57,113 nt of DNA, taken from the NCBI GenBank assembly GCA_028866835.1, contig JAGWHJ010000005.1:1-57113 (forward strand), given 5' to 3'. Source of the DNA: Microcaldota archaeon. Lineage in GTDB: Archaea > Micrarchaeota > Micrarchaeia > Micrarchaeales > CABMGC01. The translations under genes were made by a program, and so were the position numbers. Each line of letters opens with the position of its first letter. Position 1 is the stretch's first letter. Positions 11,947 through 53,513 of the stretch are shown piece by piece. Under the pieces are notes generated by a model, which worked only from the letters and a program-made list of their open reading frames with translations, was not told the DNA's origin and did no database searches.

Positions 11947-13288
11947 TGTGACATCCTCCAACGACTGAAGGCCGTTGGCTTCCAATGGTGGCTTTTTGAT
12001 TGGTCATCTTGAACCACCAAATATAGTTCCTCGTTCAGCGGCATCCGCCTTCATGTGCGAAGGTCTTACGTTGTCTCCAGAGGCGTTACTTCCCGAATGC
12101 CCTTCGGTAGCTCTTTTGAGTATATTTACACTTGCGTTCAAGTCCCTGTCCTTTGACATTCCGCAAATTTCACAGTTGAATGTCCTTTCCGACAATGGCA
12201 TATCTTGAACGTTTCCGCATTCACTGCATGTCTTTGATGTGTTCTGGGGGTTCACTCCGACTGCCACGCAACCAGCGCTTTCAGCCTTGTATTGCAGCAG
12301 CTGTGTGAAATTGCCCCATGAGGATTCGCTGATGGATTTTGCAAGATGATGATTTTTCATCATGTTTGCGACTTTGAGTTCCTCGTATGCGATGAATGAG
12401 TATGAATTGACCAGGGTGTAAGAAAGTTTATGGAGGCAATCTTCCCTGATTCTGGATATATGTTCTGCATGTCTTGAGAATCTGAGGACTGCCTTCTTCC
12501 TGTTCTGTGAACCTTTCTTCGAGCGTGATATTCCCTGTTGCAGGCGTTTCAAGGAATTGCGCTCTTTTGTGATTTTTATATTATGTAAAATGTTACCGTC
12601 CGAGAGAGTTGCATAATTGGCAATTCCTAAATCAATCCCGATAGCGGGATTTCCATTTGTGAAAGGGACTATATCCTCTTTCTCCGCTGATATTGTGATG
12701 TACCATTCCCCTGATTTGGTCTTTTTTATTGAAAGTGTCTTTGCCTTGCCTTCAATCTCCCTGTGATTTACGAAATTTACCTTTCCTATCTTTGAAAGTT
12801 CAATTCTCTTCTTTTCTATTTTAAATCCTGATTGAGGGTATGTCAATGACGATACGAAAGACCTGAAGCGGGGAAATCCTACCTTTAGCCTCTTTCCATT
12901 CCTTTTTTCTTTTGCTCTCCTGAAGAAATTCTTGTATGCCTTTGACAACCTATCTGGGACGTTCTGCAAGACTTGGGAATATACTTCATTATACTCTGGG
13001 TGTTCTTTCTTGAACTTCGTGACCCATTTTATCATGTCATACTTTGTAAAGGTCTTTCCCGTATCCCTGAAGTGTTCCTTTGCCTTTTCAAGAAGATGGT
13101 TGTAGAGTTCCCTGCATAGAAGCATCTGCCGGTTAAGAACAGACTTTTGCTCCTTTGAAGGATACGCCCTAAATTTGTATGTTTTTTTCAAGATGACCAC
13201 AGTTATTGCGCCATCAATATTTATATTTATACATGTTTTGTTGTTGCATTCGCTTTCGTCCCGCCTCTAAAGGTGGGATTTCCCCCCT
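11947..13288 (-). mobile_element. IS200/IS605-type TnpB-only element (ends approximate)
   Basis: tnpB flanked by subterminal hairpins CCAACGAC-TGAAG-GCCGTTGG (11958-11978) and TCCCGCC-TCTAAA-GGTGGGA (13259-13278); minus-strand right end reads ...GTTGGAGGATGTCAC, typical of this family. No tnpA in the window. Confidence 0.85.
12004..13200 (-). CDS. tnpB: TnpB RNA-guided nuclease (IS605 OrfB)
   Basis: 398 aa; RuvC-like motifs GIDLGIANYATL, IAYEELKV, KDRDLNASVNI; zinc finger CSECGN..C.IC. Confidence 0.95.
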   Translation of the reverse strand: MVILKKTYKFRAYPSKEQKSVLNRQMLLCRELYNHLLEKAKEHFRDTGKTFTKYDMIKWVTKFKKEHPEYNEVYSQVLQNVPDRLSKAYKNFFRRAKEKRNGKRLKVGFPRFRSFVSSLTYPQSGFKIEKKRIELSKIGKVNFVNHREIEGKAKTLSIKKTKSGEWYITISAEKEDIVPFTNGNPAIGIDLGIANYATLSDGNILHNIKITKERNSLKRLQQGISRSKKGSQNRKKAVLRFSRHAEHISRIREDCLHKLSYTLVNSYSFIAYEELKVANMMKNHHLAKSISESSWGNFTQLLQYKAESAGCVAVGVNPQNTSKTCSECGNVQDMPLSERTFNCEICGMSKDRDLNASVNILKRATEGHSGSNASGDNVRPSHMKADAAERGTIFGGSR

Positions 13289-16030: not shown

Positions 16031-16717
16031 CTAGAAGATGTCGTTCTTGCTAAGATACGCATTCGCTTCCTCAACATCCTTTATCGAATCGATGCTTTTG
16101 AAGTATGCGTCCTTGAACCTGTGCGCGCCGAGAAGCTTTTCCTTTGAGAGCTCGACGAAGGTGCTTGTCTCCAGAGATCCGCTGCCCTGCGGAAGGTAGT
16201 CGAAGATCCTGCTAGACATGACGTAAACTCCGGCATTCATCCAGTACTCGCTGAGGAGCGGCTTCTCCATGAACGAGACTATCTTGTCTCCCTCAAGCAC
16301 AGTTATCCCGTAAGTGCTCCTCAATGGCACAAGCCCTATGGATGCGACCTCGTCGTCCTTCAGACGAATCTTGCGTATGTCTATGTTCGAGATGGTGTCG
16401 CCGTTGAACATGGCGAACTGCTCTTCGCCCTTGAGCAGATCCTTGGCGCGCCTCAGCGCCCCTCCGGTGCCTAGCGGCTCGTCCTCGTGCGAATACACGA
16501 ACTCCATGTCCTCCTTCCTTCCGTCAAGATGCGTTATGAGCTTCTCCTTGAGGTACCCGCACAGTATCACGAAGGAATTTATGCCGCACTTGTGCAGCCA
16601 GCTTATCTCCCAGTCTATTATGGGCTTGCCCGCTATCTCTATGAGCGGTTTTGGTATCGTATCGGTGAGGGGCCGCAGCCTTTTTCCGTAGCCTCCAGCA
16701 AGTATGACTGCCTTCAT
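16031..16717 (-). CDS. NDP-sugar pyrophosphorylase (nucleotidyltransferase)
   Basis: 228 aa; intact AVILAGGYGKRLRPLTDTIPKPLIEIAGKP signature; FNGDTISNIDI. Confidence 0.92.
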   Translation of the reverse strand: MKAVILAGGYGKRLRPLTDTIPKPLIEIAGKPIIDWEISWLHKCGINSFVILCGYLKEKLITHLDGRKEDMEFVYSHEDEPLGTGGALRRAKDLLKGEEQFAMFNGDTISNIDIRKIRLKDDEVASIGLVPLRSTYGITVLEGDKIVSFMEKPLLSEYWMNAGVYVMSSRIFDYLPQGSGSLETSTFVELSKEKLLGAHRFKDAYFKSIDSIKDVEEANAYLSKNDIF

Positions 16718-26961: not shown

Positions 26962-27546
26962 TTAAGCGTTGCCCTTTGCTGCCAGTATCTCAAGCCTCCT
27001 TATGTTCTTTTCCTTTGTCGGACCGTAGATATCGGTTGCGCCGCTCGTGAAGTATTTATGGCCCTTGAGAAAACTTATCTCTCGGCTTTTCCATTCATTG
27101 CCGCTTACGCCAAGCTCCCTGCGCAGCGCTTCTGCCTGGGAGAAATACCTGCTGGAGCCCAATGTCGCCAGATCCGCATCGCAAAGTATCTGCTCGTACC
27201 TGTTCTTCGGCCTCTGAGGCATTGATGTTGCAAGTATGAGTCTTTTGGTGAACCTTATCTCCTCCGCAGTGTAGCCCATTCCGGCAAGCGCGGTTTCGCA
27301 TATCATGGCGCCGAAAGGTTCGTTCTTGTCGTACCTTACCAGGTATCCGGTATCGTGAAAGAGTGCCGCTACAAGTATCAATTCCCTTTTGCGGCCCTTG
27401 ATCCCCTCCGCTTCGCAGATTTTTTTTGCAGCATCATGGACAAAAAGGGTGTGCTTCATGTTGTGGTAGTATAACTTCGTGCCGTCGATGGCCTTCAGAA
27501 TATCAAGGACGTATCCCCTGGCGTTGAGATATCTTGAGGCGCTCAT
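26962..27546 (-). CDS. HD-domain phosphohydrolase
   Basis: 194 aa; H..KH..FV, ALFHDTGYLVRYDKNEP HD motif. Confidence 0.85.
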   Translation of the reverse strand: MSASRYLNARGYVLDILKAIDGTKLYYHNMKHTLFVHDAAKKICEAEGIKGRKRELILVAALFHDTGYLVRYDKNEPFGAMICETALAGMGYTAEEIRFTKRLILATSMPQRPKNRYEQILCDADLATLGSSRYFSQAEALRRELGVSGNEWKSREISFLKGHKYFTSGATDIYGPTKEKNIRRLEILAAKGNA

Positions 27547-28580
27547 TTAGTTACCGCGGCCCTTGTATAATGCACTACCTCGGCAGCGTGCATGTATATT
27601 TCAAGGAGGTCATCCACACTTGGAAGCTGGTCTCGCGACGCCCTCAGCCTCTGGATGCTTTCGACAAACGGCATCGCATCCTTGGGCACAACCCCGTTGG
27701 TGGATCCATTGCCCAATGAACTGCTGAAATGGCCGTTTCTTGAAAGATTCGCCGCATTGACCAGGAGGTTCGCTATTACCTTTATCTTTACAAGGCCCTC
27801 CTTGCTCAACAGCCTGTCGCTCAGGTGTATATTCCCATTAAGAAGCATGTACGTCTCGGCTATCATCACCTCTGCGGTGGCGACTATTATCGACGGCGAC
27901 CCGGTCTTTGGCCTCTCGGCCCGCCACAGCGCGGCTATGCTTTTATCTACCCTGCCCTGGCTTCCAAGCAGTGTCGAGCTGTCCATCAGCCTTTCGATGA
28001 AATACCTAGAACCCTCCAGATCCAACATCGCCCATCCCTTAAGGGCCTTCCTCCCGGTGAACATGGACAGGTCGAGCCTGGTGACATTTACCGACCCTTC
28101 AGAAACCCCTTGCGAGGCCGCTGCTATGTGATACATCGCGCTTTCTTCCAGAACAACCTCCGAGGTGAAGACCGGCGACACTATGGCGTGTATCCCTTCA
28201 TCCGAAAGCTGCCTGAATGCTCCTTTGAGGGCCTCGGACATGGTGGCCACCTTTGAGATGTCCAGGACCTGTTTCCCACCCTTGGTCACTGCTATAACGT
28301 CTATGTCGCTAAGCGCGCTTTTCGAGTTGGCTCCGCCGTTCGTGCCGTTGCTGCCCGATACGACAACCAGTATGCCCTTCCCGAATGCATCGCGCAGCTG
28401 GTCCCTCACAACGTCTATTATTCTGCCATGCCTTGTGGCGTAGTCGTCATTGGAGATATGGACAGAGCCGTTTGACGGCCTCGAAAGCCTTTCAGGATCA
28501 GCGTGGCCGTTGGGGAGGGAATGGTGTCCATTTGATGCAGCAGCTTGCCTCGCATTATGCCTTATCATGCCGGCCACCAT
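27543..28580 (-). CDS. Pol-beta-type nucleotidyltransferase-fold protein with C-terminal helical domain
   Basis: 345 aa; VVVSGSNGTNGGANSKSALSDIDVIAV = GS-x(13)-DxD pattern; 4-bp overlap with the HD gene. Confidence 0.65.
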   Translation of the reverse strand: MVAGMIRHNARQAAASNGHHSLPNGHADPERLSRPSNGSVHISNDDYATRHGRIIDVVRDQLRDAFGKGILVVVSGSNGTNGGANSKSALSDIDVIAVTKGGKQVLDISKVATMSEALKGAFRQLSDEGIHAIVSPVFTSEVVLEESAMYHIAAASQGVSEGSVNVTRLDLSMFTGRKALKGWAMLDLEGSRYFIERLMDSSTLLGSQGRVDKSIAALWRAERPKTGSPSIIVATAEVMIAETYMLLNGNIHLSDRLLSKEGLVKIKVIANLLVNAANLSRNGHFSSSLGNGSTNGVVPKDAMPFVESIQRLRASRDQLPSVDDLLEIYMHAAEVVHYTRAAVTK

Positions 28581-28764: not shown

Positions 28765-29634
28765 TTAGGCATCGACGGTCTTCTTGAAGCCGTTCGCTAT
28801 AGCCTCGAGGGCCTTTATGCTCTTGTTTATGCTGCTGGTGCTGTCTATCGAGTACCATGGCCCAGAGAAGACGTAGCCGAAGAGCTTGCCCTTCTCGACG
28901 AGCTTGGGAAAGAGGCTCTCCTCGAGCATGACCTTGTTTCCGGCACCCTTTATCATGCCGAAGATCTCCGGGCTGAAGAGGTATATGCCGGCGTTTACCA
29001 GTGATGCCTCGTCCTCGTGCTCGTGCTTCTGCATGAACCTGGTTATCCTGTTGCCTTCCAGCCTTGTCACGCCGAAACTCGACCTAGAATATGCGGGCGT
29101 TATCGCCACTGTTGCGATTGCCTTGTTGGCCGTGTGCTGCCTGTACATGCCCTCCATGTCTATCTTGAAGATATGGTCGCCATTGACTGCGAAGAAAGGC
29201 TCGCTGCCCATGAAGCTCTCGGCGAGGGCCAGCGCGCCCTCGGTGCCCCTCGGCATGTCCTCCTTCACGTAATTTATATGCATGCCGAACTTCGAGCCGT
29301 TGCCCAGGTATGCGGGTATCTCATCGGAATTCCTTCCTATGGATACAATGACGTCGTGCACATGGTTGGCCTTCAGCTCCTCCAGGATGTAGCTTATTAT
29401 GGGCCTGCCGCGTATGCTGACCATCGATACGTTGACGCCCCTCCCGTTTATCGTCACCTTGGAACCGCCGGCGAATATAAGGACCTTCCTGTAGTTGCTC
29501 CTGTGTATGGAGGAGTTCAACAGCTGCTCTATCGCATGCGACCTGTTCCTTATCTTCACGCCGTCTATCATCGAGTCTATTGCCGACAGCAGGTTCTTGT
29601 CAAGCGTTATTGTGAGCCTCTCTTTCATTTGCAA
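28765..29634 (-). CDS. Ribbon-helix-helix domain fused to a sugar-nucleotidyltransferase-like domain
   Basis: 289 aa; RHH KERLTITLDKNLLSAIDSMIDGVKIRNRSHAIEQLL followed by NTP-transferase fold (RPIISYILEEL, RGTEGALALA, VNGDHIFKIDM, NAGIYLFSPEIF, WYSIDSTSS) with degenerate N-terminal signature FAGGSKVTINGRG. Confidence 0.85.
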   Translation of the reverse strand: MQMKERLTITLDKNLLSAIDSMIDGVKIRNRSHAIEQLLNSSIHRSNYRKVLIFAGGSKVTINGRGVNVSMVSIRGRPIISYILEELKANHVHDVIVSIGRNSDEIPAYLGNGSKFGMHINYVKEDMPRGTEGALALAESFMGSEPFFAVNGDHIFKIDMEGMYRQHTANKAIATVAITPAYSRSSFGVTRLEGNRITRFMQKHEHEDEASLVNAGIYLFSPEIFGMIKGAGNKVMLEESLFPKLVEKGKLFGYVFSGPWYSIDSTSSINKSIKALEAIANGFKKTVDA

Positions 29635-29660: not shown

Positions 29661-29680
29661 ATAAATACAAATGTATTTAT
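29661..29680. promoter_or_regulatory. 20-bp palindromic operator candidate
   Basis: ATAAATACAAATGTATTTAT: 9-bp inverted arms, 2-nt spacer, between divergent starts 29634(-) and 29731(+), overlapping TATA-like sequence. Confidence 0.55.
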
Positions 29681-29701
29681 ATATATGAGCTTACATTATA
29701 T

Positions 29702-29720
29702 AGTATGATAAAGTATGATA
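29702..29720. repeat. Tandem direct repeat AGTATGATA x2 with 10-bp period
   Basis: AGTATGATA at 29702-29710 and 29712-29720, in the leader/promoter of the cupin gene. Confidence 0.6.
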
Positions 29721-29730
29721 GTTGGTTGAG

Positions 29731-30579
29731 ATGGTAGCTGTTTTAGGCAGGCAGATTAGAGGCAGGAATGAGCTTGACAGGGTTATTGCGCAGGAGAAGC
29801 GGCCGATCATAATAGACAGGGAGGATGAGGGGCGGCACAGCCACGACGCCATGAGGCTGCGCATTCTGCGCAGGGATGGGATAGGGGCGGTAGAAGAGGC
29901 AACCGGGGAGGGATTTACATTCGCCTTCTCGGCAGGCAGTTTCAACATGGGATTTGGATCCAATGGCAACTCAGGGGAGATCGGCAATGTGCATGCGGCG
30001 GCGCTGCCGGGAGGTACAAGATTCCGAATTGAACACAGCGAGCTTCTTTACATCGGGTCGGTATCGACAGGGGCGCAGAGGGGCGGGGAACTGCGTTCAC
30101 CGATAGGCTTCACTATGCCGTACATAATGAAGCACCTCGAAAACGGAAAGGCAAACAAGATGGTCGTGCCGGAGCAGATGAATGGCGATGTAAAGGCAGC
30201 CGGCGGGGAACGGGTGCACAGGCAAAGCAGGAAGCACGTGGTTGTAGGCCCGGAAAACCAGGAGTTCTCTGCGGGAAATGCCAGGTCGCCGCAGCAGTTT
30301 CACGTGCACATGTCCCTTGTAGAGGCGTACATACCGATGGGCGGAATGGACCTTTACTACGTATCGCAGGGGCGCGTGGAGAGGGTCAGGATGGAGCCTG
30401 GCGACATAGCAGTGCTCCCGAGCGGCGTGCCGCACTTTGTGGAGATGTTCGGTGACAAGCCAACATTTGTCCTGATGGCCAGCGCAAGGCCGATCAAGGG
30501 CGACAAGTTCCTGCTGCCGTTCGGGCTCGACACCGAACGCATGGCACTTACCGATTCCCTGATAGGCGCGGTGAGATAA
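29731..30579 (+). CDS. Cupin-domain protein
   Basis: ATG 29731; QFHVHMSLVEAYIPMGGMDLYYVSQGRVERVRMEPGDIAVLPSGVPHFVEMFG. Confidence 0.8.
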   Translation: MVAVLGRQIRGRNELDRVIAQEKRPIIIDREDEGRHSHDAMRLRILRRDGIGAVEEATGEGFTFAFSAGSFNMGFGSNGNSGEIGNVHAAALPGGTRFRIEHSELLYIGSVSTGAQRGGELRSPIGFTMPYIMKHLENGKANKMVVPEQMNGDVKAAGGERVHRQSRKHVVVGPENQEFSAGNARSPQQFHVHMSLVEAYIPMGGMDLYYVSQGRVERVRMEPGDIAVLPSGVPHFVEMFGDKPTFVLMASARPIKGDKFLLPFGLDTERMALTDSLIGAVR

Positions 30580-30595
30580 GCAGAGACGATCGCAT

Positions 30596-31135
30596 ATGGG
30601 GGCAACATGGAGTAGCACGTATTCGATCTGGCTAATGCCGGACGCGGAGGCCAATGCCAGGGCAATGGGCGAGATACGCAGGCTTGCATCCGCTTACGGC
30701 ACAGTGCCTTTTGAACCGCATGTCACAATAGTAGATTCGGCAAGAGGGGAGGAGACATACCTCATCAATAAGACAATTGAATTTGCCAGGCGCATAAGGC
30801 CCTTGAGGCTTGATTTCAGCGGTCTGGACCAGACGGACCAGTACTTCAGGTGCGTGTTCGCAAGGATAAGGGAGACGAGGGAGCTCATTGATTGCCATAG
30901 TCTTGGCGCGGACATATTCAAGGTACAGAAGAACGGGTTCATGCCCCACATGAGCCTTATGTACGGAAACATGCCGGCAGGGAAAAGGGCGGAGATAATA
31001 AGCGGCATAGAGAAGGATGGTCTGCTCGACAAACTTCGTGGTTCCGGATTTGGTGTGGACAGGCTCAGCCTCAACATTGTAGGCGCAGATATGGGCAGAT
31101 GGAAAACATTAAAGGTATTAAATTTGCAGGGTTAA
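30596..31135 (+). CDS. 2H phosphoesterase (2'-5' RNA ligase/cyclic phosphodiesterase-like)
   Basis: 179 aa; paired motifs EPHVTIVDS and MPHMSLMYG (HxT/HxS). Confidence 0.85.
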   Translation: MGATWSSTYSIWLMPDAEANARAMGEIRRLASAYGTVPFEPHVTIVDSARGEETYLINKTIEFARRIRPLRLDFSGLDQTDQYFRCVFARIRETRELIDCHSLGADIFKVQKNGFMPHMSLMYGNMPAGKRAEIISGIEKDGLLDKLRGSGFGVDRLSLNIVGADMGRWKTLKVLNLQG

Positions 31136-31176: not shown

Positions 31177-32100
31177 ATGAGACATGCAATAGGCTTGGAC
31201 ATAGGCGCCACACACATCAGGGCGACCCTTGGGAATGAGAAGGGCGAGCTGAAGGGCTTCATCTCCGAGAAGACAGACAACAAAGGGATAGAGCAGCAGA
31301 TATACCGGCTTCTCGACAGCTACTCTGACTATGAATGCATAGGCATCGGGTCGATGGGCCCGCTCGATTCCTTTAAAGGGATAATAACAAACCCCCCGAA
31401 CATAAACATAAGGAACCTGAGGATAGTGGAGCTGCTCGAGAAGAAGTATGGCGTTGCTTCGAGGCTGCTCAATGACTGCGCTGCAGGCGTATACGGGGAG
31501 AGGGCCTTCGGGGCCGGCAAGAACCTTGAGAACCTTTCGTATGTTACGATGAGCACGGGCATAGGCGCAGGGGTGATACAGGACGGCAGGCTCCTTTTCG
31601 GCAAGGACGGCAACGGCCACGAGATAGGTCACTGCGAGGTGGATGCGGACATAAGGCTGAAATGCAGGTGCAACTGCCTTGCAAGGCACTGGGAGGCGTA
31701 CGGCGCAGGCATAAACATACCCAACTTCGTGGAGCAGATGCTCCTCATGAAGTACAAGGGCAAGAACTCCAGGCTTAGGCAGATCAGGAACATGACCGCC
31801 AAGGACCTTTTTGATGCTGCGGAAGATGACAAGGTCGCGGCACAGCTGCTTGATGACCTGGGCAGGATAAATGCCAGCGGCATAGCGAACGTGGTCAACG
31901 CCTACGACCCCGAGCTCATAACTATAGGCGGCTCCGTTGCGCTTAACAACCAGAGGCAGATCCTGGACCCGATAAAGAGGTACATCTCCGAGTACACGAT
32001 AAACAGGCTGCCAAAGGTAATGATCACGCCGTTGGGAAAGGACGTCATACTCGCAGGCGCTGTCGCCTACATACTCGATGCCACAAAGGATGCGGAATAA
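31177..32100 (+). CDS. ROK-family sugar kinase
   Basis: 307 aa; AIGLDIGATHIRATLG, LNDCAAGVYGE, MSTGIGAGVI, GHEIGHCEVD, CRCNCLARHWEAYG. Confidence 0.9.
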   Translation: MRHAIGLDIGATHIRATLGNEKGELKGFISEKTDNKGIEQQIYRLLDSYSDYECIGIGSMGPLDSFKGIITNPPNINIRNLRIVELLEKKYGVASRLLNDCAAGVYGERAFGAGKNLENLSYVTMSTGIGAGVIQDGRLLFGKDGNGHEIGHCEVDADIRLKCRCNCLARHWEAYGAGINIPNFVEQMLLMKYKGKNSRLRQIRNMTAKDLFDAAEDDKVAAQLLDDLGRINASGIANVVNAYDPELITIGGSVALNNQRQILDPIKRYISEYTINRLPKVMITPLGKDVILAGAVAYILDATKDAE

Positions 32101-50032: not shown

Positions 50033-50095
50033 AACGCGGCTTTCGTAGATAACTTTTAAGAACGTATCTTGGCTAATTCTCGCTGTGGTGATGTG

Positions 50096-51517
50096 ATGGA
50101 CAAAGACGATAGGATAGGATACGCCATAGACGTGATAAAGAGCAACGGCATAAAGTGGGTTGACCTGCAATTCACGGACCTCCTTGGGAGGCTGCAGCAC
50201 GTGACCGTGCCTGCAGACCAGTTCGACAGGGAGGCGTTCAGCGAGGGATTCGGCAAGCTCGACGGCAGCAGCATAAAGGGCTTCACCGAGATATACGAGA
50301 GCGACATGGTCCTTATGCCGATACCGGAAAGCGTCAGGCCCATACCTTGGGCACCTGGGGTTGCAAGGATAACGGTTGAGATACACAGGGGCGCGAAGTC
50401 CGGCAGGTTCGAGAGGGATCCGAGGGGCATAGCGGAGAAGGCCGAGACGCATCAGAAGGAGCTCGGCTACACAAGCTACTTCGGTCCGGAGCCTGAGTTC
50501 TTCATCTTCGATTCCGTTAACCTCGACATCGCGCAGCCGAGCTCGGGCACGGGATACAAGATACACTCGAACGAGGCGCCGTGGGAGAACGCGGGCGGAT
50601 ACATAATAAGGCACAAGGAGGGATATTACCCTGCTGAGCCCATAGACAGGATGAGCGCCATAAGGATGGAGATAATAACACTTCTTAAGGAGAACTTCGG
50701 CTTCCAGATAGAGGCCGCGCACCACGAGGTTGCCACCGCAGGGCAGTGCGAGATAAACTTCAGGTACTCAACGCTTGTTGACACGGCAGACAAGCTCCAG
50801 ATGCTCAAATACGTGGTGAGGAACATCGCGCACAGCCACGGCATGATCGCTACGTTCATGCCGAAGCCGATGTTCGGCGACAACGGCAACGGGATGCACA
50901 CCCATTTCAGCATATGGACGCTCAACCAGAAGAACATGATGTACGACAAGGACGACCATTACGCGGAGCTGAGCAGGGAGGGAAGGCACGTGATTGGTGG
51001 CATCCTCAAGCATGCGCCGGCGCTCTCGGCGATAATATCGCCGACTGTCAACAGCTACCACCGCCTGATACCGGGCTTCGAGGCCCCCGTGTACCTCGCG
51101 TGGAGCAGGTCGAACAGGAGCGCAGTGATAAGGGTGCCTACATATTACAAAGGAATTGAAAAGGCGAAGAGGATAGAGTACAGGGCTCCGGATCCGACCT
51201 GCAACCCGTACCTGGCCTTCTCGGCGATCCTCATGGCAGGGCTCGATGGATTGAAGAACAAGGTCGAACCAGGTGACCCGGTGATCGATGAGAGCATATA
51301 CGAGATGACAGTGGCGAAGAGGAAGGAGCTCGGCATAAGGGAGATACCGAAGAGCCTTGACCAGGCCCTCGATGCACTTGAAGCTGACCACGAATTCCTA
51401 AAGCCCGTCTTCAGCAGCGCTCTTCTCGATACATACATAGATCTCAAGAGGGACGAGTGCAGGATGATAGCGTCCTACCCGCATCCGATGGAGCTCTACC
51501 AGTACCTTGACGGCTAG
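50096..51517 (+). CDS. glnA: Glutamine synthetase
   Basis: [69 protein letters not shown]. Confidence 0.96.
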
Positions 51518-51565
51518 GTAAAATTAAATAGTTTGGTCTTGTAATAAGTTCTTGCGTGATTAGAG

Positions 51566-52435
51566 ATGAGCAAAGACACGGTTACGATTGGCCTCATACA
51601 GATGAGCGTAGGTACCGATACGAGCGCAAACCTTGAAAAGGCAGTAAAGAGGATACGCGAAGCTGCGAAGAAAGGAGCGGAGATAGTCTGCCTGCCTGAG
51701 CTCTTCAGATCAGAGTACTTCTGCAAGGAGGAAGAGACCGAGAAGTTCAAGCTTGCCGAAACCATACCAGGCGAGACCACAGAGGCGCTTTCGAAGATCG
51801 CGAAGGAACTCGGCGTTGTCGTAATAGCGGGCATATTCGAGAAGCGGGCGCGAGGCTTATACCACAACTCAGCGGTGATAATAGATGCGGACGGCTCTAT
51901 CGCTGGAAAGTACAGGAAGATGCACATACCCGACGACCCGCACTTCTACGAGAAGTTCTATTTCTCGCCGGGCGACCTCGGCTTCAAGGCGTGCCAGACT
52001 AGATACGGGAAGGTTGGTATACTCATCTGCTGGGACCAATGGTATCCGGAAGCGGCAAGGCTTACCGCGCTTCTCGGCGCGCAGATCATATTCTACCCGA
52101 CCGCGATAGGCTGGCTGTCAGGTGAGGAGACCAGCTCCAAGGACATGGAGTACGCATGGGAGACGATACAAAGAAGCCATGGGATTGCAAACGGCGTGTT
52201 CATTGCCTCCGTGAACAGGGTGGGAATGGAAGGCAACATGAGATTCTGGGGCTCATCGTTCGTGTCAGGCCCTTTCGGAGAGACGCTGGCCAAGGCGGGC
52301 AAGGACGAGGAGATTCTCATAGCAAAATGCGACATGGACAGAATTGACGACACGAGGCATAACTGGCCTTTCCTTAGGGACAGGAGGATAGATGCGTACA
52401 AAGGGATTGCATCAAGGTTCCTCGAAGATGAATAA
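51566..52435 (+). CDS. aguB: Carbon-nitrogen hydrolase, N-carbamoylputrescine amidase
   Basis: 289 aa; nitrilase triad regions LPELFRSEYFC, KYRKMHIPDDPHFYEKFYFSPGD, GILICWDQWYPEAAR. Confidence 0.9.
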   Translation: MSKDTVTIGLIQMSVGTDTSANLEKAVKRIREAAKKGAEIVCLPELFRSEYFCKEEETEKFKLAETIPGETTEALSKIAKELGVVVIAGIFEKRARGLYHNSAVIIDADGSIAGKYRKMHIPDDPHFYEKFYFSPGDLGFKACQTRYGKVGILICWDQWYPEAARLTALLGAQIIFYPTAIGWLSGEETSSKDMEYAWETIQRSHGIANGVFIASVNRVGMEGNMRFWGSSFVSGPFGETLAKAGKDEEILIAKCDMDRIDDTRHNWPFLRDRRIDAYKGIASRFLEDE

Positions 52436-52448
52436 CCAAGTGACATAA

Positions 52449-53513
52449 ATGACTGAGACGCCTTTTTCACTCGGCTACAAAATGCCTGCGGAGTGGGAGG
52501 AGCATGATGCAACCTGGCTTTCATGGCCAAAGGACCCCGAGAGCTTTCCTGAGGAGATCCTGCCAAGGGTCGAGGATTCCTACATCAGGATGATAGACGC
52601 TTTGCACAGGAACGAGAGGGTATGCCTTCTGGTTGATGATGAAAAATCCGAAAGGCGCGTGGCCCAGTTGCTCAAATCAAACGGCATAGACAGCACCAAT
52701 ATTGCCATGCACAGAATTCCTACAAGCGACGTGTGGTTCAGGGACTACGGCCCCATATTCGTGACAAAGAAGGGCGGGGTGGCGTTTACACGCTGGAGAT
52801 TCAATGCGTGGGGCGGCAAGTACGAGGAGCTGAAGCGCGACGCGCAGATTCCTGACAAGATTCCGTTGGGAGGCATACGCGGCTTCAACGTGCAGATGGT
52901 CCTTGAGGGCGGCTCGATAGACATGAACGGGCTCGGGACGTGCCTGACTACGGAGCAGTGCCTGCTCAATAGTAACAGGAATCCGAGCATGGGCAAGTCG
53001 CAGATAGAGAAGAACCTCGCAGATTACCTTGGTGCAACTAACATAATCTGGCTGAAGAGTGGCATAGAAGGAGACGACACCGATGGCCATGTGGACGATC
53101 TGGCGAGATTCGTGAACAGGGACACGGTGGTTTGCGCCGTAGAGTCGAACCATCGAGATGACAATTACAATGCACTGAAGGACAACTATGCGATACTTGA
53201 GCAGGCAAAAGACCAGGACGGGAAGAAGCTGAAGGTGGTACAGATCCCGATGCCAGGAAAGGTGCTGTACAATGGCCAAAGGCTTCCCGCAAGCTACGCC
53301 AACTTCTACATCGCAAACAAGACAGTGCTCGTGCCCATATTCGACGATCCGAACGACCAAAAGGCGCTTGGAATACTGGGAAAGCTCTTCCCTGAAAGGA
53401 AGGTTGTAGGAATCAACTGCAGGGACCTTGTTTACGGCTTCGGCTCGATACACTGCGTCACGCAGCAGCAGCCCAAGACCCCCCGAGTGGATTCAGATCT
53501 TGGTGTTGGATAG
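52449..53513 (+). CDS. aguA: Agmatine deiminase
   Basis: 354 aa; PAEWEEHDATWLSWP, WFRDYGPIFV, DDTDGHVDDLARFV, GSIHCVTQQQP. Confidence 0.94.
   Translation: MTETPFSLGYKMPAEWEEHDATWLSWPKDPESFPEEILPRVEDSYIRMIDALHRNERVCLLVDDEKSERRVAQLLKSNGIDSTNIAMHRIPTSDVWFRDYGPIFVTKKGGVAFTRWRFNAWGGKYEELKRDAQIPDKIPLGGIRGFNVQMVLEGGSIDMNGLGTCLTTEQCLLNSNRNPSMGKSQIEKNLADYLGATNIIWLKSGIEGDDTDGHVDDLARFVNRDTVVCAVESNHRDDNYNALKDNYAILEQAKDQDGKKLKVVQIPMPGKVLYNGQRLPASYANFYIANKTVLVPIFDDPNDQKALGILGKLFPERKVVGINCRDLVYGFGSIHCVTQQQPKTPRVDSDLGVG

Follow-up and report, generated by a model that had tools for sequence, protein, structure and literature searches.

A conserved ribbon-helix-helix/pseudo-nucleotidyltransferase fusion in Micrarchaeales archaea, predicted to repress sugar genes through a GTATGA-repeat operator

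The window analyzed here is the whole stretch of 57,113 nucleotides of contig JAGWHJ010000005.1 from a Microcaldota archaeon with a 1.09-Mb genome. On its minus strand, it contains an intact open reading frame of 289 codons that runs from TTG 29634 and ends at 28765, in the frame and at the coordinates given by the first-pass annotation. Because close relatives all begin with MKERLTIT, we placed the start of the gene at the conserved ATG 29628, upstream of which lies an SD-like AAGGAG. The gene and its two domains are:

28765–29628, minus strand: fusion gene of a ribbon-helix-helix (RHH) domain and a pseudo-sugar-nucleotidyltransferase, 287 amino acids from ATG 29628; TTG 29634 remains a possible start
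29494–29628, minus strand: RHH DNA-binding head, residues 1–45, with strand RLTITLD and helix 2 NRSHAIEQLL
28819–29481, minus strand: NDP-sugar pyrophosphorylase-like domain, approximately residues 50–270 (Pfam NTP_transferase, 5e-27; Foldseek matches to GMPPB and RmlA)

Just downstream of the fusion (27546–28580, minus strand), a GS-x9-SDID-like nucleotidyltransferase motif can be recognized by eye in a gene without a Pfam match. Also by eye, a TnpB-like transposase reading frame was found at 12007–13200 (minus strand) in a GC-poor patch (45.5% versus about 53%), and glutamine-synthetase-like, amidohydrolase, and agmatine-deiminase-like genes, a possible polyamine pathway, lie in a row at 50069–53510 (plus strand).

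The head of the window copy scores 19.4 bits against Pfam RHH_1, just under the cut-off of 20.5 bits, and matches NikR models at 4.5e-6; heads of relatives exceed the Pfam cut-off with 27.0 and 20.9 bits. A monomeric AlphaFold model, built at low depth from four sequences only, displays residues 1–9, then two helices (11–23 and 29–39), followed by the nucleotidyltransferase (NTase) fold. The strand of an RHH domain would form only in a dimer. The protein thus has the N-terminal strand-helix-helix matching an RHH profile that defines the family. The pLDDT of the model is 67 overall and 70–89 over much of the NTase domain, with low confidence at residues 55–65, the former place of the NTP loop. 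Its best Foldseek matches are GMPPB in the GMPPA/GMPPB complex and RmlA, which, together with the Pfam match to NTP_transferase, places the remainder of the chain in the NDP-sugar pyrophosphorylase fold. Both halves of the architecture proposed by the first-pass annotation are therefore borne out. No Pfam match to a Hexapep domain was found in the fusion, which ends at residue 287.

The complete fusion is present in 25 genomes of the order (165 genomes searched) and in about 47 of the 302 genomes of the class, where carriers include families f14, f18, f19, f21–f24, f26, and f27 in addition to a few more divergent fusions. The recurrence of full-length copies in so many independent genomes rules out a sequencing artefact joining two genes, which had been named as a possible refutation, and provides the phylogenetic spread that had been asked for. 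The other copies in the order are 38–67% identical to the window copy, the RHH part being the best conserved, and residues R27, N28, R29, S30, H31, A32, and E34 are invariant in the 25 orthologues. A search at the phylum level covered the same 302 genomes as that of the class. In a wider contig search, only two unrelated NTases without an RHH domain were found; this search excluded near genomes and could detect close relatives only, and does not show absence outside the class. The tree allows for the fusion having arisen once, with weak support (58/77). Two divergent RHH-NTase fusions (L075:1719–2513, minus strand, and L077:2104–2925, plus strand) form a clade of their own, the latter being located near an RmlA-like gene.

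A regular-expression search for the signature GG-x-[GAFY]-[TS]-[RK]-[LM] retrieved none of 30 fusions, as opposed to 23 of 24 non-fused paralogues; the 24th of these is the intact NTase of the window itself (16034–16717, correctly identified in the first-pass annotation at 16031–16717), which reads GGYGKRLRPLT. This agrees with the earlier observation that the signature is degenerate in the fusion and present in that second protein. By this test, the NTP-binding and catalytic loop of the active enzymes, GxGTRLRPLT, is missing in all 30 fusions, and in several families it has been shortened or removed outright by deletion. Active enzymes also possess a PKP lysine and two metal-binding aspartates. 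This set is incomplete in the fusions: the Asp at W258+2 is missing from all 25 fusions of the order and the lysine has been lost in the clade of the window, while D151 is retained. The window copy further retains G128-T129, FGV, K201, and NAG-Y; constant among the fusions are D151, G128, H165, G192, G214, and, nearly, K201, residues that by homology are parts of the sugar/nucleotide cleft. The C-terminal domain thus appears to descend from a sugar-1-phosphate nucleotidyltransferase that lost its NTP-triphosphate loop and catalytic residues. An active pyrophosphorylase is disfavored, and even residual enzyme activity is unlikely because the signature is lost, although sequence alone does not exclude it.

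Upstream of the fusion lies a divergent set of genes, and between the two we find a repeat that we propose to be an operator:

29675–29690, minus strand: TATA-like element catatatataaatac of the fusion gene, with the operator upstream of it; inferred from reading the sequence
29692–29703, plus strand: TATA-like element (ttatatag) belonging to the divergent cupin gene and immediately preceding the operator; inferred from reading the sequence
29703–29718, no strand assigned: predicted operator GTATGATAAAGTATGA, two GTATGA half-sites with a 10-bp period; no binding data
29731–30579, plus strand: cupin-domain gene, first of the putative target operon (Pfam Cupin_1, 4.9e-5; start codon inferred)
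30596–31135, plus strand: cyclic phosphodiesterase-like (2H) gene, putative target operon (Pfam CPDase, 5e-11)
31177–32100, plus strand: ROK-family sugar kinase gene, putative target operon (Pfam ROK, 2.9e-47)

The repeated GTATGA, or TCATAC, was first noticed by reading the promoters of the fusions. Perfect GTATGA-N4-GTATGA pairs occur upstream of 14 of 34 fusions, where Markov resampling predicts 0.005, and pairs with at most one mismatch upstream of 20 of 34, where 0.06 are expected. Spacings between GTATGA on the same strand are 10 (21 loci), 20 (9), or 30 (6), with hardly any others. Arrays on this 10-bp lattice correspond to what is expected for an RHH regulator, namely a specific repeated operator near its own gene (binding not measured). 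The motif remains unchanged even though the base-reading residues of the RHH vary, with K-x-A-x-S in some families versus R-x-T-x-T. About 14 of the 34 fusions examined show no recognizable pair in the 200 bp before the gene; in some of these, a site is located at other genes instead or overlaps the start codon. Upstream of one fusion (L088), six successive decamers of TCATAC-like half-sites can be seen by eye within 110 bp, which suggests a variable operator length. Genome scans allowing two mismatches were too noisy to use, and the pattern read backwards was rejected as a null for site counts because it overlaps shifted copies of the true repeat. In the genome of the window, the pair at 29703–29718, between the fusion and the divergent cupin set, is the only perfect one. 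With zero perfect sites in trans, the regulon of this species may consist of one divergent promoter.

Relatives show a wider distribution. The 302 genomes together contain 66 perfect sites, and in 18 genomes such a site lies shortly upstream of the genome's own fusion gene. We named regulon genes by Pfam where a match existed and by eye otherwise, using simple ORF calling. Perfect sites in trans precede genes for a bifunctional PGI/PMI (G028, G029), FBPase (G296), GAPDH (G298), a GAPDH-like protein (G264; by eye, no Pfam match), a RuBisCO-like protein (G263), and a glycosyltransferase set (G299), and are found between a sugar NTase and PMM/PGM (G299, G300). These sugar-gene targets make up most of the remaining perfect sites in fusion-bearing genomes. 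Sites with at most one mismatch occur before intact NTase genes in G028, G029, G030, G031, and G033, before a ROK kinase in G103, and before the cupin in G029. In contrast, 24 of 27 sites fetched as a control from fusion-less genomes lie inside genes, mostly unrelated ones; by a conservative count, 11 of 18 sites are intergenic versus 4 of 30 in fusion-less genomes (Fisher p about 0.0009). These statistics strongly support the DNA target and the regulon, DNA binding itself being inferred.

The genomic surroundings of the fusion are also rich in such genes. It neighbors a cupin gene in 10 genomes, with a phosphodiesterase nearby in 8; elsewhere, it adjoins a UDP-GlcNAc 2-epimerase-like gene (6; identified by eye), in most cases together with an intact NTase, or has PGM/PMM (5) or FBPase (4) as a neighbor. 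In one genome (G265; L067:4882–5982, minus strand), a cupin-like domain recognized by eye is itself fused to an intact sugar nucleotidyltransferase, which echoes the cupin neighbor of the RHH fusion.

We consider it likely, with no experiment available and no ligand identified, that the fusion represses sugar-phosphate and NDP-sugar genes, in many cases also its own gene, and senses a ligand through its pseudo-pyrophosphorylase domain. Sequence and statistics establish the fusion and its conservation, the missing signature, the operator pattern, and the co-location with sugar genes; DNA binding, repression, the ligand, and the ligand's effect are inferences drawn from them. The protein would act as a one-component transcription factor whose RHH dimers bind tandem GTATGA half-sites; as these are exactly 10 bp apart, neighboring dimers would sit on one face of the DNA. 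At most targets, a bound protein would block initiation, as the repeats either come right after a TATA-like box or extend over the start codon. In the window, where they are located downstream of the cupin gene's TATA-like box and upstream of the fusion's, the simplest reading is repression of the cupin, phosphodiesterase, and ROK kinase set, whose transcription should be blocked by binding. In relatives, the protein may control further sugar-phosphate and NDP-sugar genes, often along with its own. With the loop and catalytic residues lost and much of the sugar/nucleotide cleft kept, the C-terminal domain most likely binds an NDP-sugar or a hexose phosphate without turnover, and ligand binding would alter the affinity of the RHH for DNA. 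Such sensing is most likely by analogy with NrtR/BtAraR and GMPPA (see below). The suggestion of a DNA-binding regulator with an enzyme-derived sensor thus gains support, as the operator falls inside the fragment that the first-pass annotation had put forward for EMSA and the same motif precedes sugar and NDP-sugar genes of relatives.

Could the protein still be an enzyme? A PutA-like bifunctional enzyme-regulator, i.e. a protein that is still active as a sugar nucleotidyltransferase and in addition binds DNA to repress its own pathway, is conceivable in view of what is retained, namely the fold, D151, and a large part of the sugar cleft, and an RHH fused to a working enzyme does exist in PutA (PMC5293562). 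We nevertheless regard it as very improbable: the loop is gone from every fusion compared, in several by deletion, the second aspartate and, in the window clade, the PKP lysine are lost as described above, and the fusion is often accompanied by an intact NTase gene, either adjacent to it or at another place in the genome. Such an intact enzyme might instead be a partner, so that the regulator senses by pairing with it, as GMPPA does with GMPPB, and reads the state of the enzyme rather than a small molecule alone. The GMPPA/GMPPB complex is among the nearest folds, GMPPA, a paralogue without catalytic activity, binds both GDP-mannose and GMPPB (PMC11228364), and intact NTases are close to the fusion in six or more genomes. 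However, the candidate partner in the window is about 12 kb away, there is no evidence of direct contact, and the fusion lacks the hexapeptide domain of GMPPA and GMPPB, making this an unlikely arrangement, if one less easily dismissed than retained catalysis.

Two other readings concern the operator. The GTATGA repeats could be owned by another RHH protein, a true NikR, the fusion not being the binder, since GTATGA is the half-site of Escherichia coli NikR (PMC7055735) and NikR-like RHH proteins occur in genomes G000, G011, G012, G037, G041, G077, G103, and G264. This we hold to be the least plausible of the alternatives, because most of the fusion genomes searched (about 15 of 23) contain no full-length NikR-like protein, only the fusion head or a short RHH, and none has one that passes the NikR cut-off. 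The sites are moreover 10-bp direct repeats rather than an inverted repeat with an N16 spacer, and they track the fusion gene and sugar genes. The window's own genome encodes, outside the window, a NikR-like protein of RHH plus ACT length that stays below the family cut-off (G000:C18:8324–8671, locus L251). Alternatively, the fusion may activate rather than repress transcription, at the very least that of its own gene, whose TATA-like box has the site on its upstream side both in the window and in several relatives. Most targets, including the divergent cupin gene, have their sites in a blocking position, just downstream of the TATA box or on the start codon, which leaves activation a minority possibility, albeit the one to be taken most seriously among these rivals.

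To our knowledge, little is known about the control of sugar metabolism in small-genome archaea, for which the fusion offers a specific, conserved candidate regulator whose operator and regulon can be predicted. If the repressor reading is correct, the nucleotidyltransferase joins the enzyme folds that have been turned into transcriptional sensors, as the Nudix fold has in NrtR, and the fusions represent a lineage of pseudoenzymes in which catalysis was lost along with the gain of a DNA-binding head. A further-reaching idea, which we put forward as speculation, is that a class-wide family gauges the supply of sugar nucleotides with its dead pyrophosphorylase and adjusts not only NDP-sugar synthesis but also the flux through central carbon metabolism (FBPase, GAPDH, PGI/PMI), perhaps in a complex with the living paralogue; such a complex would make the enzyme part of a transcription switch.

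Comparison with known systems places the predicted repressor among several of them without a full match to any. NikR has the closest RHH profile, shares the GTATGA half-site, and carries a ligand-binding C-terminal domain, and E. coli NikR binds GTATGA-N16-TCATAC (PMC7055735); head and half-site therefore agree, whereas the arrangement, a direct repeat with a 10-bp period, differs, as does the regulon, which comprises sugar genes instead of nickel uptake. The fusions have no ACT or nickel domain, match only positions ~1–46 of the full-length RHH plus ACT model, and none exceeds its cut-off. PutA, which is trifunctional, resembles the fusion in that a metabolic protein bears an RHH head and represses its own regulon (PMC5293562), but this trigger enzyme retains full catalysis in an intact domain of unrelated fold, whereas the fusion has lost its signature. 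RmlA and mannose-1-phosphate guanylyltransferase share the fold and ancestry of residues 50–270; relative to them, the fusion has lost the NTP-binding loop and catalytic residues and added the RHH. GMPPA is a pyrophosphorylase-fold pseudoenzyme that binds an NDP-sugar (PMC11228364), and its complex with GMPPB is the top structural match, but it regulates an enzyme, has no DNA-binding domain, and ends in a C-terminal hexapeptide (left-handed beta-helix) domain that the fusion does not have. NrtR and BtAraR operate in a similar manner: they regulate the pathway that matches their enzyme fold, a Nudix domain whose catalytic signature is impaired and which, on binding an effector, rotates the DNA-binding domain attached to it (PMC4666351). 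These proteins are bacterial and combine Nudix with a winged HTH, in contrast to the archaeal combination of nucleotidyltransferase and RHH, so the likeness is one of working principle, not of folds. Our text searches, restricted to open-licence literature, found no paper on an RHH joined to a sugar nucleotidyltransferase; an enzyme fold turned transcriptional sensor is thus a known kind, of which the RHH-nucleotidyltransferase version is without earlier description in the literature searched.
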